Shown here piece after piece: positions 36,189 through 44,812 of a stretch of DNA of 44,812 nucleotides. This DNA is from Desulfobacterales bacterium (GTDB taxonomy: Bacteria; Desulfobacterota; Desulfobacteria; Desulfobacterales; SpSt-501): NCBI GenBank assembly GCA_030834695.1, contig JAUQXK010000081.1:1-44812 (forward strand), given 5' to 3'. How positions within the stretch are numbered: position 1 is the first letter of the stretch; each line of letters opens with the position of its first letter. The notes under the pieces are model-generated. The model did no database searches, was not told the DNA's origin, and saw only the letters and a program-made list of their open reading frames with translations. A program made the translations under genes and the position numbers.

Positions 36189-36265
36189 GGCGATGTAGCT
36201 CAGTTGGTCAGAGCATGCGGCTCATATCCGCAGTGTCCGGGGTTCAAATCCCTGCATCGCCACCA
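36189..36265 (+). tRNA. tRNA-Met (CAU), elongator type
   Basis: A 77-nt cloverleaf. The acceptor GGCGATG pairs with CATCGCC, and the D-arm contains AGCTCAGTTGGTCAGAGC. The anticodon stem GCGGC..is closed around CTCATAT (anticodon CAT), the T-loop is TTCAAAT, and CCA is encoded at 36263-36265. The first base pair G-C argues against the initiator, which has a mismatch. The alternative is tRNA-Ile2 with a lysidine-modified CAT; overall similarity favours elongator Met. Its 3' end is duplicated in decayed form at 38193-38214. Confidence 0.93.
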
Positions 36266-36277
36266 TATGACTCACCT

Positions 36278-36308
36278 AACCCGCTGAAATTTTTCAGCGG
36301 GTTTTTCA
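36278..36308 (+). terminator. Terminator directly after tRNA-Met
   Basis: AACCCGCTGAA at 36278-36288 pairs with TTCAGCGGGTT at 36293-36303, with T-tracts following. It may also serve the convergent receiver genes from the other side. Confidence 0.8.
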
Positions 36309-36339
36309 ATTTTTGAAACAAGCACTGGCAACCCGATCC

Positions 36340-36717
36340 TTACCCCGGTTGATGACCCGCCCTGATTGCAGCAAGAATGTCCTCGGGGCTACAGTTCTGG
36401 CACATTGGATAACAAGCCCAGGATTGGCATTCACAGGCTGTGATGGAGTTTCCAGATGAATCCCTGGACAGGAATATGATTCTGGTATCCTGGAACCTGG
36501 CAATAATCATCTCTGTGTTCTCCAAGCCCTCAGTGAAAGGCTGCATGTTGTCTATCAGAATCACGTCCGGCTTCTGGTCCTCTACCTCCTTGACCCCGGC
36601 AAAGCTGGTCTCTGCTACGATACTTATATCCTGTTCTTCTTGAAAGAGCTTTACCACTTCCCCTCGGGACTTTGGATCGTCATCAATGATAGCGATACTG
36701 ATCTGTAGGGAGTTCAT
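36340..36717 (-). CDS. Stand-alone receiver domain, Cys-rich and lacking the conserved Lys
   Basis: A 125-residue CheY-like domain: acidic pocket IIDDDP (Asp12, Asp13) and phospho-acceptor Asp56 in DVILIDNMQP. The switch Ser/Thr is Ser84 in IIFLSRD. The region where receivers have the invariant Lys after a Gly-Tyr-Leu turn is replaced by ACECQSWACYPMCQNCSPED: five cysteines (95, 97, 102, 106, 109) and no lysine. The ATG at 36717 overlaps the stop of the upstream receiver (ATGA), so the two are translationally coupled. No output domain. It may bind a metal or sense redox state; this is inference. Confidence 0.85.
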   Translation of the reverse strand: MNSLQISIAIIDDDPKSRGEVVKLFQEEQDISIVAETSFAGVKEVEDQKPDVILIDNMQPFTEGLENTEMIIARFQDTRIIFLSRDSSGNSITACECQSWACYPMCQNCSPEDILAAIRAGHQPG

Positions 36718-37145
36718 GGCAGCAGCCACAAAAGGGAAACTTGGTGTGGTGGATGCTCAACAATCCTTGGAGGTCCAGGTGAGCAGTCCCTAATTGCTTG
36801 GAGGAGCTTCTCCCTGCCGCAGTCCTTGGTCAGCAATCGGCATGCACCAGCTTGGAGTGCCGTGTCTTCGTTGGGTTGGTCATTGTACATCGTGAGGACA
36901 ATGACCTTGGTTTCGGGGAACTGCGAGGAAATGATCCGGGTAGCCTCAATTCCATTGAGGATAGGCATGGTGATATCCATCAGCACGACATCCGGTCTGT
37001 GCGTTTTGACAGCTTGGATGGCATATGCTCCGTTCTCTGCTTCAGCAACGATCTGCAGGTTGGGCTGTTTCTCAAGAATGTTGCAGATCGTCCTCCGATA
37101 CAGATGGCTATCGTCGGCAACGACAATACGAATTGGTGTAGCCAT
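36714..37145 (-). CDS. Stand-alone response-regulator receiver
   Basis: 143 residues; a complete receiver (VVADDS with Asp11/Asp12, phospho-Asp57 in VVLMDITMP, Thr85, Lys107 in LLTKDCG) plus a 22-residue tail (GPPRIVEHPPHQVSLLWLLP) with no output domain. It resembles the receiver half of NarL/FixJ-type regulators (HLYRRTICNILEKQPNLQIV) that has lost its HTH. Ribosome binding site GGGGAGGG precedes the ATG. Its stop overlaps the start of the Cys-rich receiver. No histidine kinase is in the window. Confidence 0.88.
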   Translation of the reverse strand: MATPIRIVVADDSHLYRRTICNILEKQPNLQIVAEAENGAYAIQAVKTHRPDVVLMDITMPILNGIEATRIISSQFPETKVIVLTMYNDQPNEDTALQAGACRLLTKDCGREKLLQAIRDCSPGPPRIVEHPPHQVSLLWLLP

Positions 37146-37328
37146 AAATATCCCTCCCCGAAAGAGACATGAATGACGCCAACTAACAATTAATTACAAT
37201 GAGCATCAATGGGTTGAAGACTGTAAGTGTCAGGTACGGTGGATCCGGAAAACGCAAGGTGGTCCAGAACGCTTCGTGGGTGGACTGTCAGCACCCGTGA
37301 AGCAGGAAAGCCGCAGACCCAAAGCTTA

Positions 37329-37703
37329 TCAAATTTCAGCAGTCCTGATTGCCTTGATGATCTCCCTCGGTGAGCATCCCTTGTGGAGGCACCAAAAGGC
37401 ACCGGCTTTGAAAGCTGCCTCCGAAATGCAGCCCACATCATGCATGGTCATAACGATGACCCTGATCTCGGGGAACTTGGATTTAATGACCCAGGTGGCA
37501 TCAATACCATCCATGACGGGCAAGCTGAAATCCATCAGCACAATGTTTGGTCTGAGGTTTTCGACTGCCTGGATAGCCTCAAGCCCGTCTTCCGCTTCAC
37601 CAACGATCTGCAGATTGGGATTCTTCCCGAGGATACGGCTGATAGTTTTCCGGTAATGCTCGTTGTCGTCGACAATAAGAATACGGATGGGTGCACCTGT
37701 CAT
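37329..37703 (-). CDS. Stand-alone response-regulator receiver
   Basis: 124 residues from the ATG at 37703 (GGAAG upstream; an earlier start at 37724 is weaker). A full receiver: LIVDDNEHYRKTISRIL, phospho-Asp58 in IVLMDFSLPVMDG, Thr86 and Lys108 in CLHKGCSP. It is clearly paralogous to the receiver at 36714-37145 (shared PNLQIV.EAE and AIQAV phrases), so the cluster grew by duplication. It lies 183 nt upstream of that gene, with no recognisable feature in the gap, and ends without an output domain. Confidence 0.88.
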   Translation of the reverse strand: MTGAPIRILIVDDNEHYRKTISRILGKNPNLQIVGEAEDGLEAIQAVENLRPNIVLMDFSLPVMDGIDATWVIKSKFPEIRVIVMTMHDVGCISEAAFKAGAFWCLHKGCSPREIIKAIRTAEI

Positions 37704-37852
37704 CTGAATCTTCCACGGAGACATCCTTAACTCACGAAAACCTTACCACCTGAAATTTTTAGCATCTATGGGGTGTAGACAGTATTTTCTCGATAAACCT
37801 ATTGGGGTATTGGGTGACTTATATAAACTTTTTAACCCAAGAGAGGCCCGAC

Positions 37853-38074
37853 ATGGATGAAACATTCAATGAAAAGTTTTCTGCAGGCTGGAAGGACCCT
37901 TTAGAGCTGTGTGGCAGTTTTGTTCGGTATCTCCTTGAGGACCTCCGTGACTTAAATGAGCACCGGGAGTTACTCCGAGATCTCATCAAGATGTATGGAT
38001 CTGACTGGGTCTGGCAGAATCGGAATCGGCTTGTGGCTTTGATGGCATTCCTGTTTACACCGTCAATGAACTGA
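37853..38074 (+). CDS. Small hypothetical protein, 73 aa
   Basis: A mostly helical, charged protein. Two amphipathic helices (LELCGSFVRYLLEDLRDLNE and ELLRDLIKMYGSDWVWQNR) are followed by a short hydrophobic end. The ATG at 37853 has GAGAGG upstream; a longer frame to 37802 lacks one. It diverges from the receiver genes by 149 nt and is the only non-receiver gene in the island. I do not recognise it. A four-helix-type partner of the receivers (for example an anti-kinase or phosphotransfer helper) is only a guess; no conserved His is evident as a phosphorylation site. Confidence 0.6.
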   Translation: MDETFNEKFSAGWKDPLELCGSFVRYLLEDLRDLNEHRELLRDLIKMYGSDWVWQNRNRLVALMAFLFTPSMN

Positions 38075-38192
38075 TCAGAGGATGATACCCTGCCATTTGA
38101 GATTATGAGGGACTATCCCCAGAAGGCTCGATGAGGGTCACTGTTGATCTCTAATTTACGCGGGTTAAACAACGTGGTCGATGGTGGGTTGT

Positions 38193-38214
38193 CCAAATCC
38201 CTACATAGCCACCA
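38193..38214 (+). pseudogene. Decayed 3' end of tRNA-Met (second attachment copy)
   Basis: Twenty-two nt matching the tRNA-Met 3' end at 36244-36265 with three substitutions, ending in CCA at 38212-38214. The sequence before it does not fold as a tRNA. Confidence 0.6.
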
Positions 38215-38223
38215 GAATTTGAT

Positions 38224-38252
38224 AACCTACTGACTCATCAGTAGGTTTTTCT
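38224..38252 (+). terminator. Terminator after the tRNA-Met remnant
   Basis: AACCTACTGA at 38224-38233 pairs with TCAGTAGGTT at 38238-38247 around a CTCA loop, then a T-run. Its presence right after the tRNA remnant mirrors the tRNA-terminator pair at the other end of the island. Confidence 0.75.
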
Positions 38253-38523
38253 TTTTTCTATGCCTGCGATTCAATCCCGCTGCCTGCACATGTCCCTGCC
38301 GCAGGGAATCCGCATCCCGCCTGGGATGAAGGCTTTCCAGCACCGCCTAAACCCAGACCAGCCGGCAGCCGGATTCCTGTATCCGATTCCTGTTTCCATT
38401 CCTATTTCCATTGCAAAATCGGGAGCGCTTCAGTTAGGATGAAATTTCGGCCGGCCGATTGGGACCCAATAAACAGTGGGGAGCTGCCGAAATGGCTCTT
38501 TGGGCGGGTTGAAAGGCATAATC
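38253..38523. other. Intergenic region with short imperfect repeats
   Basis: No gene is supportable. At about 38378-38414 the sequence repeats the word ATTCCTGTATCC-like (ATTCCTGT.TCC, ATTCCTATTTCC) three times. No clear promoter for the following methyltransferase gene is visible; AAAGG at about 38512 is its ribosome binding site. Confidence 0.35.
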
Positions 38524-39270
38524 ATGGATCAACAATTCGAGCAACTTCGTCGAACCTGGGATCATTTCGGTGAGATCGATCCCTTGTGGGCGATCTTGTC
38601 CTCTCCGGGCAAACGAGGGAAGCGTTGGGATATCGAAAGTTTTTTCGCCGAGGGCCGCCGTGTGATCGAGAGGTTGCTCGGAGTCATCGCCGAACGATTT
38701 CCCGATGTCCCGCGATTCTGTGCACTTGACTTTGGCTGCGGCGTCGGGCGTCTGACGCGAGCGCTGGCGGCTCATTTCGATCGTGTGATCGGGGTGGATG
38801 TGGCCGCATCGATGATCCGGCGCGCGCAGCAACTCAATTCCGACCTAAAAAACTGCGAATTTGTGCTTAACGAAAGCGATAACTTAAAAGTGATCGAGTC
38901 GGGCTCGGTGGACGTTATTTATTCCGACCTCGTGCTTCAGCACATCGCGCCATCCTATTCGGAGGGTTACCTGCGGGAGTTCGTTCGCGTCCTGTCACCG
39001 CGGGGTCTGGTTGTGTTTCAGGTCATCGACCAGCCCGGAGATACGCTAATCGGCCGTTTGTCCCGGTTCGTCCCAGGTCTCCTCCTCGAGGCCTACCGGC
39101 GCGCCCGGTATGGGCAACACCGGATCCAGCTCCACCCATTTCCCATGGAACGCATCCACGAGGTTGTGCGTGCGGCAGGCGGCCGGGTTCTGCAACAAGA
39201 GGATATCAAGGGCCCCGACGACCGGTGGAAAAGAAAACAATATTTTGTTGGCAAGCCGACGGGGCGCTGA
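38524..39270 (+). CDS. Class I SAM-dependent methyltransferase
   Basis: 248 residues. SAM-binding motif I is ALDFGCGVGRLTRAL, followed by VIGVDVAASMIRRAQ (acidic ribose-binding residue) and VDVIYSDLVLQHI (motif IV-like). The fold is the common Methyltransf_11/25 type; the substrate is unknown. I take the ATG at 38524 (AAAGG 8 nt upstream). It is monocistronic and is the first gene of the core genome after the tRNA-Met island. Confidence 0.88.
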   Translation: MDQQFEQLRRTWDHFGEIDPLWAILSSPGKRGKRWDIESFFAEGRRVIERLLGVIAERFPDVPRFCALDFGCGVGRLTRALAAHFDRVIGVDVAASMIRRAQQLNSDLKNCEFVLNESDNLKVIESGSVDVIYSDLVLQHIAPSYSEGYLREFVRVLSPRGLVVFQVIDQPGDTLIGRLSRFVPGLLLEAYRRARYGQHRIQLHPFPMERIHEVVRAAGGRVLQQEDIKGPDDRWKRKQYFVGKPTGR

Positions 39271-39474
39271 TGATTCGGTTGAACTGGCCGCATTAAAGGG
39301 CTGCTGTTTTCGCTCCAGCCGGCAGTTTGTAATTGATTCCAGGCGTTCGGCCCCACCTCTTGCAAACAGGCCCGCTCGAAGCTATAAACAATCCCGTCCG
39401 CACCATATTTTCCTGAAAAAGCAGCGTGCGGATTTTCGTCGGATCGTGTCCCAAATGCAGGGATCCCATAGCTT

Positions 39475-39861
39475 ATGATCAGCGGCTTTGAAAAGATCGT
39501 GGAGGAACGGATTCGCCGAGCCATGGAGAACGGCGAGTTCGAGGGTCTGGACGGCGCTGGCGAGCCGCTTACACTCGAAGACGACAGCCACCTCCCGGTG
39601 GATCTGCGCCTGGCGTATAAAATTCTGAAGAACGCCGAATGCCTTCCGCCTGAAATCGAGTTGCGTAAAGACATCGAAAAAACCGAAGACCTCCTCAGCG
39701 CGTTCCCCGAAACAGTCGAGAAATACCGATTGCTCAAGAAGCTGAACTTTTTGATTCTCAAATTGAATGCGATGCGCCAAACCTCCATCGCCAACGAAAT
39801 CCCCCAGCATTATGCCGGCATGATCGTTTCGCGGCTGGAGATGAGGAAACAGCGCAAATAA
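39475..39861 (+). CDS. DUF1992 (YdhN/DnaJ-C-like) protein
   Basis: 128 residues. The start GFEKIVEERIRRAMENGEFEG and LDGAGEPLTLEDD is the DUF1992 signature, followed by a coiled helical region (KDIEKTEDLLSAFPETVEKY). DUF1992 members are small proteins occasionally fused to J-domains; their role is unsettled. It lies 26 nt before ddl and could be in the same transcript. Confidence 0.88.
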   Translation: MISGFEKIVEERIRRAMENGEFEGLDGAGEPLTLEDDSHLPVDLRLAYKILKNAECLPPEIELRKDIEKTEDLLSAFPETVEKYRLLKKLNFLILKLNAMRQTSIANEIPQHYAGMIVSRLEMRKQRK

Positions 39862-39887
39862 ACAATAGTTCCCTGGGAATACCTAAA

Positions 39888-40835
39888 TTGACGAAGAAGC
39901 TAAGAATCGCTCTTCTGTCCGGAGGCGTATCCTCGGAGCGTGAGGTGTCGCTCAACAGCGGCAACCAGGTTTACGAGGCCCTGGATAAAGCGAAATACGA
40001 GATCCTGCGCTACGATCCAAAAACCGACCTGGCCCGTCTGGTCGGCGATGCCGCCCGCATCGACGCGGCGCTGATAATCCTGCACGGAGCCTTTGGCGAA
40101 GACGGAACGGTGCAGGGACTGCTCGATCTGCTCGACATTCCCTACCAGGGTTCAGGCGTTCTCGGCAGTGCGGCCGCCATGAACAAACTGGCCGCCAAGC
40201 GACTTTACGAGCAGGCCGGATTGCCGATCCCGGCCTATGTCGTGGCCCACCGCGCCGAAGGGACCGATCCGGATGCCATCGTGAAACGGCTGGGGCTGCC
40301 GCTGGTCATAAAGCCCGTGGTCGGAGGCTCCAGCGTGGGGATCACTATTGTTCGCCGTCCCGAGGCCATTCGAGGCGCTGTTGAGGCCGGCTGGGAGCAT
40401 GACCCGGCGGTGCTGATCGAAACCTACGTCCAGGGCATAGAAATCACCGGCGGGGTGATCGGCAACGACGTGCTCGAAGCCCTTCCCCTCATTGAGATCA
40501 TTCCGGATCCCAACCGGGAATTTTTCGATTACACGGCCAAGTACACGCCAGGAGTCACTGAGGAAATCTGCCCGGCGCGGATCGATCCGGAGCTGACCGC
40601 CGCGGCCCAGCGGCTGGCGCTGGAGGCCCACCGAACACTTTTCTGCCGCGGCTACAGCCGCACCGACATGATGGTGAGGGGCCGGGAAGTATTGATTCTC
40701 GAAACCAACACCATCCCCGGTATGACGGCTACCAGCCTGCTCCCCCGGGCCGCCCGCACGGCGGGGTTGAGCTTCACCCGTCTGCTGGACCGGCTGATCG
40801 AATTGAGCCTGGAGGGCCGGTGCCGACCCGGGTGA
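39888..40835 (+). CDS. ddl: D-alanine--D-alanine ligase
   Basis: A 315-residue ATP-grasp ligase. It starts with IALLSGGVSSEREVSLNSG (Ddl serine motif), has LHGAFGEDGTVQGLLDLLDIPYQGSG and VIKPVVGGSSVGI in the ATP-grasp, and ends with RTDMMVRGREVLILETNTIPGMT (Mg-binding Glu/Asn). It makes the D-Ala-D-Ala dipeptide for peptidoglycan. The TTG start at 39888 fits the family start; no ATG is suitable. It is followed within 4 nt by an ATP-grasp gene of unknown function. Confidence 0.95.
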   Translation: MTKKLRIALLSGGVSSEREVSLNSGNQVYEALDKAKYEILRYDPKTDLARLVGDAARIDAALIILHGAFGEDGTVQGLLDLLDIPYQGSGVLGSAAAMNKLAAKRLYEQAGLPIPAYVVAHRAEGTDPDAIVKRLGLPLVIKPVVGGSSVGITIVRRPEAIRGAVEAGWEHDPAVLIETYVQGIEITGGVIGNDVLEALPLIEIIPDPNREFFDYTAKYTPGVTEEICPARIDPELTAAAQRLALEAHRTLFCRGYSRTDMMVRGREVLILETNTIPGMTATSLLPRAARTAGLSFTRLLDRLIELSLEGRCRPG

Positions 40836-44118: not shown

Positions 44119-44205
44119 GCCGGAGTGGTGAAATTGGTAGACGCAGAGGACTCAAAATCCTCCGATCGCAAGGTCATGCCGGTTCAAGTCCGGCCTCCGG
44201 CACCA
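44119..44205 (+). tRNA. tRNA-Leu (CAA)
   Basis: An 87-nt class II tRNA with encoded CCA. The acceptor GCCGGAG pairs with CTCCGGC. Anticodon stem GAGGA/TCCTC encloses CTCAAAA (anticodon CAA). A long variable arm (CGATCGCAAGGTCAT region) and T-arm GCCGG TTCAAGT CCGGC follow. It is intact and has its own promoter and terminator; it is the probable integration site of the element to the right. Confidence 0.95.
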
Positions 44206-44215
44206 GAATTAAATC

Positions 44216-44251
44216 AAGGAGTTAACCTTCATTTGGTTGACTCCTTTTTTT
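44216..44251. terminator. Bidirectional terminator between tRNA-Leu(CAA) and the integrase
   Basis: AAGGAGTTAACC at 44216-44227 and GGTTGACTCCTT at 44235-44246 pair with one G-T wobble, followed by a T-run (44247-44251). The integrase stop codon (44229-44231) lies in the loop, so one hairpin ends both transcripts. Confidence 0.75.
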
Positions 44252-44812
44252 CTGGAAAATGAGCGATTGTAACGGTTCTTGTAACGGTTCTCGATAAATT
44301 TTTTTCGTACAGGTATTTTTCCTGTTGAGCCGCAGCAAGTTTAAGGTCTTCTTCGCTTACGATATTATAGCGGTCAAAGACTGAACGGGTTTTATGGCCT
44401 GAGATTTTCATGGCAACTGTTTCAGGCACTCCGGAACGGACCATGTTTCTAACTGCTGTGCGGCGGAAATCGTGCAGGATAGGCCCCGCTGGCAGTTTTC
44501 CCTGCCATTTCTCAACATAATTGCTGCCCAAACGGTACCCGTACCCGAGCCCGACCTTGCGGCAAGCCTCGTTCCAGCAGTGACGAAAATCCTTGATCTG
44601 CCCTGTGCCTTCTGCGTTGGGAAAGACGTACTCGCAGAGTTTGCCGGCGCGCTTGCGTTCCTGGGATTGCCCCTTGAAAATCTCCTGCAGTTCGTTGTCT
44701 AAATAGATACTACGGCCATCGTCGTTCTTGGTGGTTCCAGGCTCCAGCCGGACGATGCCCTCTCCAAGGTTCACTTGGCTCCAGGTTAAGTCGGTGATTT
44801 CAGCTTCCCGCC
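44229..44812 (-). CDS. Tyrosine recombinase (integrase), C-terminal catalytic domain (partial, runs off right edge)
   Basis: The frame is open to the right edge, so the N-terminal DNA-binding part is outside the window. The visible part starts exactly in catalytic box I (REAEITDLTWSQVNLGEG, Arg at the edge) and contains LEPGTTKNDDGRSIYLDN, HDFRRTAVRNMVRSGVPE (HxxR), ISGHKTRSVFDRYN (second His and the nucleophilic Tyr). All catalytic residues are present. It is convergent with the tRNA it probably targets. A GTG at 44774 would truncate the protein within the catalytic core and is not the real start. Confidence 0.92.
   Translation of the reverse strand, partial: REAEITDLTWSQVNLGEGIVRLEPGTTKNDDGRSIYLDNELQEIFKGQSQERKRAGKLCEYVFPNAEGTGQIKDFRHCWNEACRKVGLGYGYRLGSNYVEKWQGKLPAGPILHDFRRTAVRNMVRSGVPETVAMKISGHKTRSVFDRYNIVSEEDLKLAAAQQEKYLYEKNLSRTVTRTVTIAHFPEKKESTK

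Follow-up and report, generated by a model that had tools for sequence, protein, structure and literature searches.

Why do three receiver domains without an output domain lie directly behind a tRNA gene, and how did they come to be there? This arrangement is found in contig JAUQXK010000081.1 of a Desulfobacterales bacterium (assembly GCA_030834695.1), where a segment of 1.95 kb (36266-38214) is situated between an intact tRNA-Met gene and a drifted copy of the 3' end of the same gene. The whole stretch of 44,812 nucleotides that was analysed is referred to here as the window, the source genome as G000 and its six relatives from the same genus as G001 to G006. A first-pass annotation of the window had described a tRNA-Met, three stand-alone receivers (RR1, RR2 and RR3) and a 73-residue protein within 2 kb and had proposed that the segment was inserted at the tRNA. 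This gene content is confirmed by ARAGORN, Rfam, Pfam and the list of open reading frames (ORFs), and the junction that was predicted for an empty site is present in a relative, G005. The segment is a real tRNA island that lacks an integrase and carries an unusual cargo.

Insertion at the 3' end of tRNA-Met

The evidence for insertion comes from a search of the DNA of 58 genomes that included the source genome and its six same-genus relatives. In G005 the tRNA-Met is directly followed by TAAGCTTGATAACCTACTGATTCGTCAGTAGG, which is closer to the window after position 38214 than after position 36265, and blastn analysis finds the same neighbourhood as in the window on both sides of this junction. 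G001 has only ~190 bp, without receivers, from the tRNA-Met to the next conserved gene, and G003 and G004 have ~1.25 kb that contains a different gene (unrelated by eye) and no receivers. The remaining two relatives are uninformative, as the G002 contig breaks 2 bases past the tRNA-Met and G006 gave no match. The receivers are thus neither syntenic in all relatives nor present in every one, and because four of the six demonstrably lack the segment, an insertion in the window's lineage is far more probable than a series of losses.

The displaced tRNA end gives the same picture. Recurrence of the tRNA 3' end had been noted at 38193-38214 (19 of 22 bases identical); this match stands and extends to 38190-38214 with 21 of 25 bases identical, in the same orientation as the intact tRNA gene. 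In an ungapped control for 25 bases, no match above 18/25 arose in 300 plain shuffles of 36266-40000, and the copy is convincing since it is placed exactly at the break in synteny. The empty site of G005 together with this tRNA fragment establishes that the insertion occurred at the tRNA. Hairpins resembling terminators do follow both tRNA ends (36278-36303 and 38224-38247), as first described, although the number of sites in the hairpin scan (6 versus 5.1 +/- 2.1 in shuffles) is not above chance. Judged by its sequence, the distal hairpin is the native terminator of tRNA-Met, and the proximal hairpin presumably arrived with the segment as it is unlike the hairpin that follows the tRNA in G005.

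The comparison of composition that the annotation had proposed also sets the segment apart. Its G+C content is 0.49 versus 0.59-0.60 in the flanks, and among 172 sliding windows of the same size over the 44.8 kb just one is equally low (it may overlap the segment) and none is lower. Third-position G+C shows the same deviation, with 0.54-0.62 in the four segment genes versus 0.65-0.79 in ten flanking genes. All four ORFs are intact. As stated earlier, no kinase, helix-turn-helix (HTH), integrase or transposase ORF was seen in 36266-38214, as judged by eye from the ORF list and by Pfam searches of the four proteins, and receivers plus one small protein are the sole cargo seen. The tRNA-Met has a paired G1-C72 (by eye), which suggests that it is an elongator Met or Ile2 tRNA and not an initiator. 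Rfam matches were to tRNAs only.

RR1 defines a family of cysteine-containing receivers

RR1 has a receiver domain and no output domain (Pfam). The start of RR1 overlaps the stop of RR2 (ATGA), so the two are probably translated together. When alignment A1 is inspected by eye, RR1 is seen to have kept the acidic residues and the Ser but not the switch Lys, and five cysteines (C95, C97, C102, C106 and C109) occupy its alpha4/beta5 region. A search of 389 genomes of the order, in which mostly just ten first-look candidates were scored per genome, identified six RR1-type proteins, five in G000 and one in G002. These six score 201-226 bits against the family profile and all else among the matches listed scores at most 102. 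The motif C-x(3)-[AV]-C is common to all six, with C97 and C102 invariant, and in five it extends to C-x(3)-[AV]-C-x(3)-C-x(2)-C, which contains four core cysteines. The switch Lys is found in one of the six (by eye). The receivers of the segment are not unique: their family is specific to the lineage and has further copies, and a second tRNA-bounded segment contains one of these.

An AlphaFold model of RR1 computed from six sequences (mean predicted local distance difference test, pLDDT, 81.4) contains a beta hairpin formed by residues 92-98 and 101-106 in place of alpha4/beta5. Foldseek searches with this model gave weak matches to NarL-type receivers (best E 3.4e-4, template modelling scores of ~0.5-0.6, many alignments of ~80 columns). 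RR1 is a less probable candidate for a plain phosphate sink, as its switch region seems to have been rebuilt. The sole direct hint of a partner comes from G002, in which a PAS-HisKA_3 kinase is encoded on the same strand ~260 bp upstream of the RR1 homologue.

The cysteine pattern also matched in two other frames (L021 and L023) that are not receiver-like. Additionally, a promoter repeat common to the upstream regions of RR2, RR3 and the 73-aa gene had been suspected by eye, and pairwise BLAST of 12 upstream stretches supports such a repeat only for RR1-type genes.

A second tRNA-bounded segment with a sister receiver

The second segment lies in contig C129 of the source genome, where a tRNA-Phe(GAA) gene is followed 3.2 kb on by a copy of its 3' end (34/44 aligned with the last 22 nt exact; score 24, with 20 as the best of 200 plain shuffles). 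It holds RR1a, an RR1-type receiver that pairs with RR1 in both trees (97/95 in the wider tree described below, 95/95 in the other). It also contains an ORF that extends into the tRNA copy and a gene with a borderline AbiEi match, a label derived from one Pfam match exactly at its 21-bit cut-off; the neighbouring ORF matched nothing. Just beyond this segment is a pair of genes, RR2b-RR1b, in the same order as RR2-RR1. The tRNA-Met and tRNA-Phe segments have different targets and share just the receiver and a short 3' flank. At the tRNA-Phe loci of G002 and G004 (several kb past the tRNA) and of G006 (568 bases), no likeness to the segment was found beyond a 32-bp match to the tRNA end in G002. 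The contigs of G001 and G005 stop 0 and 17 bases past this tRNA, and G003 gave no match.

RR2, RR3 and the HisKA_3 kinases

RR2 and RR3 have no output domain and keep the canonical Asp, Thr and Lys along with the acidic pocket (by eye, alignment A3). In a first tree RR2, RR3, RR2b and the G002 copy form one clade (97/97). In a wider tree RR2, RR2b and the G002 copy are grouped at 89/80 with RR3 no longer held in that clade, and all ten receivers of both types group together at 90/95, which is just below the usual threshold.

A profile (A3) built from the four RR2/RR3-type receivers was scored in the genus genomes outside of its four rows. The best scores came from three stand-alone receivers on contigs C66 and C36 of G002 (130.7 and 124.2 bits) and on contig C106 (121.0 bits). 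Eight receivers that share an open frame with a HisKA_3 domain scored 102.5-127.2 bits, a receiver cut by a contig end scored 112.2 bits, the RR1-type protein of contig C55 scored 108.1 bits, and receiver-HTH proteins (HTH by eye) scored at most 102.4 bits. By these scores, and with stand-alone receivers set apart, RR2 and RR3 appear nearest to the receivers of hybrid HisKA_3 kinases. An origin by loss of an HTH domain was considered and set aside, as the profile scores favour hybrid-kinase receivers and the trees do not decide.

HisKA_3 domains number 17 in G000, 9 in G002 and 2-3 in each of the other five genus genomes, and RR1-type receivers are present only in G000 and G002, the two HisKA_3-rich genomes. 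This is a correlation only, because it involves seven genomes that differ in size and completeness. The correlation offers a starting point in the search for partners. The annotation's suggestion that the receivers could titrate or rewire phosphotransfer of the host gains indirect support from the resemblance of RR2 and RR3 to hybrid-kinase receivers and from the HisKA_3 count of the source genome.

The 73-residue protein and selection on the gene families

The 73-residue protein has no match in Pfam or NCBIfam, and its AlphaFold model is all-helical (mean pLDDT 77.9). It corresponds to the core of a small uncharacterised family that is present in 6 of 291 genomes of the order. Members of this family occur as 153-aa proteins at three places (L040, L045 and L047), with a fourth, shorter match in G174. 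Ten pairs from among the receivers and 73-aa proteins were compared; rough ratios of nonsynonymous to synonymous substitution rates (dN/dS) are 0.18-0.32 in nine of them, with the tenth saturated. By this measure both the receiver and 73-aa families are under purifying selection, a statement that applies to the families and not to the island copies after insertion.

Comparison with known systems

The architecture of the island is known from tRNA islands collected by Islander, and its cargo and the cysteine receiver family look like a new variation on it. Such islands have an intact tRNA gene at one end and, at the other, a displaced 3' fragment (PMC4383910), an arrangement that is found here along with an empty site in a relative and a deviating G+C content. 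Unlike those islands, for which an integrase is required and which peak in size at 13.6 and 39.9 kb, the segment is 2 kb in length, has no integrase and ends in a drifted fragment; Islander itself would reject it (PMC4383910). The LciRS-LciE island of Legionella is likewise a small regulator island near a tRNA (tRNA-Lys) in one strain, with an integrase pseudogene drawn in a figure of the paper. It differs in carrying a copper-responsive system, taken from its name as a kinase-regulator pair, plus an effector and not bare receivers (PMC6989116). In literature searches, none of the titles and abstract openings among the hits listed described a receiver-only tRNA island, with long hit lists covered in part.

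For RR1 the nearest analogue is FixT from Caulobacter, a single-domain receiver whose residues C53, C56, C59 and C64 bind an iron-sulphur (Fe-S) cluster and which inhibits autophosphorylation of FixL. In 2020 this was reported as the first case of Fe-S binding by a receiver (PMC7078487). Like FixT, RR1 is a single receiver domain with a four-cysteine motif that is confined to one lineage. RR1 is not a FixT, because its cysteines occupy another region of the fold (residues 95-109 in alpha4/beta5 versus 53-64, compared by the residue numbers given for FixT; PMC7078487), but it could work like one. Among the best matches to solved structures are the NarL-type receivers of NarL, VraR and RcsB. Unlike the NarL type, the receivers of the segment have no output domain, RR2 and RR3 are nearer to hybrid HisKA_3-kinase receivers than to the receiver-HTH proteins of the genus, and the C-terminal third of RR1 is altered.

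A bolder proposal, which we regard as unlikely and offer as speculation, is that the RR1 family constitutes a new type of pseudo-receiver, with a cysteine hairpin that binds metal or an Fe-S cluster in the place of the alpha4-beta5-alpha5 signalling face. Such proteins would have spread within one lineage on tiny tRNA islands, together with a phosphorylatable partner receiver, as redox-gated modulators that act in trans on an expanded set of HisKA_3 kinases. With the RR1 family it can be tested directly if the output face of a receiver can be remodelled to sense metal or redox state.

Origin of the segment and its possible function

The explanation that we prefer, with slightly better than even confidence, is that of a small tRNA-Met island, present as a relic or passenger, whose receivers act on HisKA_3 kinases of the host with RR1 as a modulator. 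Segment 36266-38214 would have integrated at the 3' end of tRNA-Met along with its own terminator, with the displaced 3' end left to drift. The recombinase would be a tyrosine recombinase that has since been lost or that acted in trans, and the integrase would either have been lost from the segment or never carried by it. RR2 and RR3 may take part in phosphate exchange with the numerous host HisKA_3 kinases or may compete for them. RR1, made together with RR2, may be a redox- or metal-dependent modulator of these same kinases in a manner similar to FixT and not a switched output; we infer these functions from the sequences. If true, bare signalling switches on very small islands would allow mobile DNA to alter host signalling with tiny parts.

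Several observations weigh against this explanation. The distal tRNA copy has four mismatches, so the copies of the attachment site are not both intact (21/25), and when the whole tRNA is used in a local alignment the copy scores 18, a narrow margin over the best of 200 plain shuffles (17). Because of these two points and the lack of an integrase, recombination itself is only inferred. Two of the four source-genome loci with RR1-type genes, those on contigs C6 and C55, have no tRNA or tRNA 3' end in the stretches of 14-16 kb that were covered. In addition, neither the cysteine set nor the phospho-Asp is strictly kept, since RR1a retains only the first two core cysteines, and the phospho-Asp that is found in the other five RR1-type proteins is missing from the C55 copy (by eye). 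The RR1 model amounts to moderate evidence at best because it rests on a shallow alignment of six sequences. Regarding the kinases, a search of G000 at 1e-30 gave no match to the one beside the G002 homologue of RR1. In the tree the ten family members stand apart from the hybrid-kinase receivers with no indication of their origin, and the stand-alone receivers on contigs C66 of G002, C106 and C29 fall outside of the ten. Finally, dS exceeds 1 in seven of the ten dN/dS comparisons and is saturated in an eighth, which leaves the ratios rough.

The segment could instead be nothing but the remnant of a larger element from which the integrase and most genes were deleted, with the receivers as passengers that have no coherent joint function. 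We consider this doubtful, yet it is the most serious competitor. The missing integrase and the drifted distal copy fit with erosion, as does the ORF behind the AbiEi-like gene of the tRNA-Phe segment, which continues into the tRNA copy in what looks like erosion, and 2 kb is far below both size peaks of the islands reported for Islander, where an integrase is obligatory (PMC4383910). Simple decay is at odds with four intact ORFs, with families under purifying selection and with an RR2-RR1 order that is kept in a second copy. Furthermore, this idea concerns the size history of the segment more than the function of its genes and is compatible with the island explanation that we prefer.

A decidedly improbable scenario is that of a compact non-autonomous element that borrows its integrase from a second element in the cell. 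There are two tRNA-bounded segments with sister receivers, an ORF for a tyrosine recombinase is present at a tRNA-Leu on the same contig (44229-44774), and islands without their own integrase are known (PMC4383910). A common mobile unit is nonetheless difficult to reconcile with two segments that have so little in common and that use different tRNA targets. Searches with the RR1-type and 73-aa families, which did not include RR2 and RR3, also found no relatives of either family in viral contigs, none of RR1 in phage records and none of the 73-aa protein in plasmid records, and on these grounds an origin of the cargo from a phage or plasmid was rejected.

Vertical inheritance, in which the receivers are ancestral at the site and were lost in relatives with the tRNA-like 25-mer a coincidence, is very improbable: G002 is unreadable past the tRNA and could have the segment, and G005 alone could not separate excision from absence, but G001, G003, G004 and G005 are all without it, G005 joins exactly at the tRNA end, and the 21/25 match at the breakpoint and deviating G+C add to an empty site that largely refutes the idea.

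A defence function was also considered and rejected, as PADLOC gave weak matches only, two for RR3 (best 4.5e-6) and one for RR2 (3.4e-4); RR1, the 73-aa protein and both AbiE-like ORFs from the tRNA-Phe segment matched nothing.

Features of the locus and other tRNA-bounded elements

Table 1. Features of the tRNA-Met locus (window positions) and of the tRNA-Phe locus (positions in L006)
Feature	Position	Strand	Basis or remark
tRNA-Met(CAT), intact target gene	36189-36265	+	ARAGORN, Rfam
Terminator-like hairpin directly after tRNA-Met, 11 pairs	36278-36303	+	Hairpin scan, G005 comparison
RR1, 125-aa single receiver	36340-36717 (or GTG start 36729)	-	Pfam Response_reg over cut-off
RR2, 143-aa single receiver	36714-37145	-	Pfam Response_reg over cut-off
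RR3, 131-aa single receiver	37329-37724	-	Pfam Response_reg over cut-off
Intergenic region between divergent RR3 and 73-aa gene	37725-37852		Last ~20 bases inside G002 match
73-aa protein ORF	37853-38074	+	ORF list
Drifted copy of tRNA-Met 3' end (21/25), distal segment end	38190-38214	+	Sequence comparison
Terminator-like hairpin, 10 pairs	38224-38247	+	Hairpin scan; matches G005 hairpin directly after tRNA-Met
tRNA-Phe(GAA), source-genome contig C129	L006 7503-7578		
tRNA-Phe-bounded segment, contig C129	L006 7503-10764		

A wider scan of contigs gave one close relative among 37 loci; the other 36 were at 22-39% identity and were not used. Contigs stop 2 bases after tRNA-Met in G002 (L019) and 0 and 17 bases after tRNA-Phe in G001 and G005 (L107 and L093), as may be expected if integrated elements or mixed populations break assembly.

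Additional tRNA genes have signs of similar elements. For example, a sequence of ~130 bp (89%) is situated directly downstream of both tRNA-Phe (L006 7635-7765) and tRNA-Leu(CAG) (L105 790-919) of the same genome, as if one element family may have used different tRNA targets. The tyrosine-integrase ORF at the end of the window is on the minus strand and follows a tRNA-Leu(CAA) that lies within 44119-44812, at the contig end. A copy of the 3' half of tRNA-Leu(CAA) is present on contig C88 (L104 ~1035-1090, by eye), which is probably the other end of this tRNA-Leu element. The left end of the window also seems to be inside another tRNA-bounded element, as positions 915-993 contain a 3' half that resembles tRNA-Leu(TAA) (by eye) followed by a hairpin.

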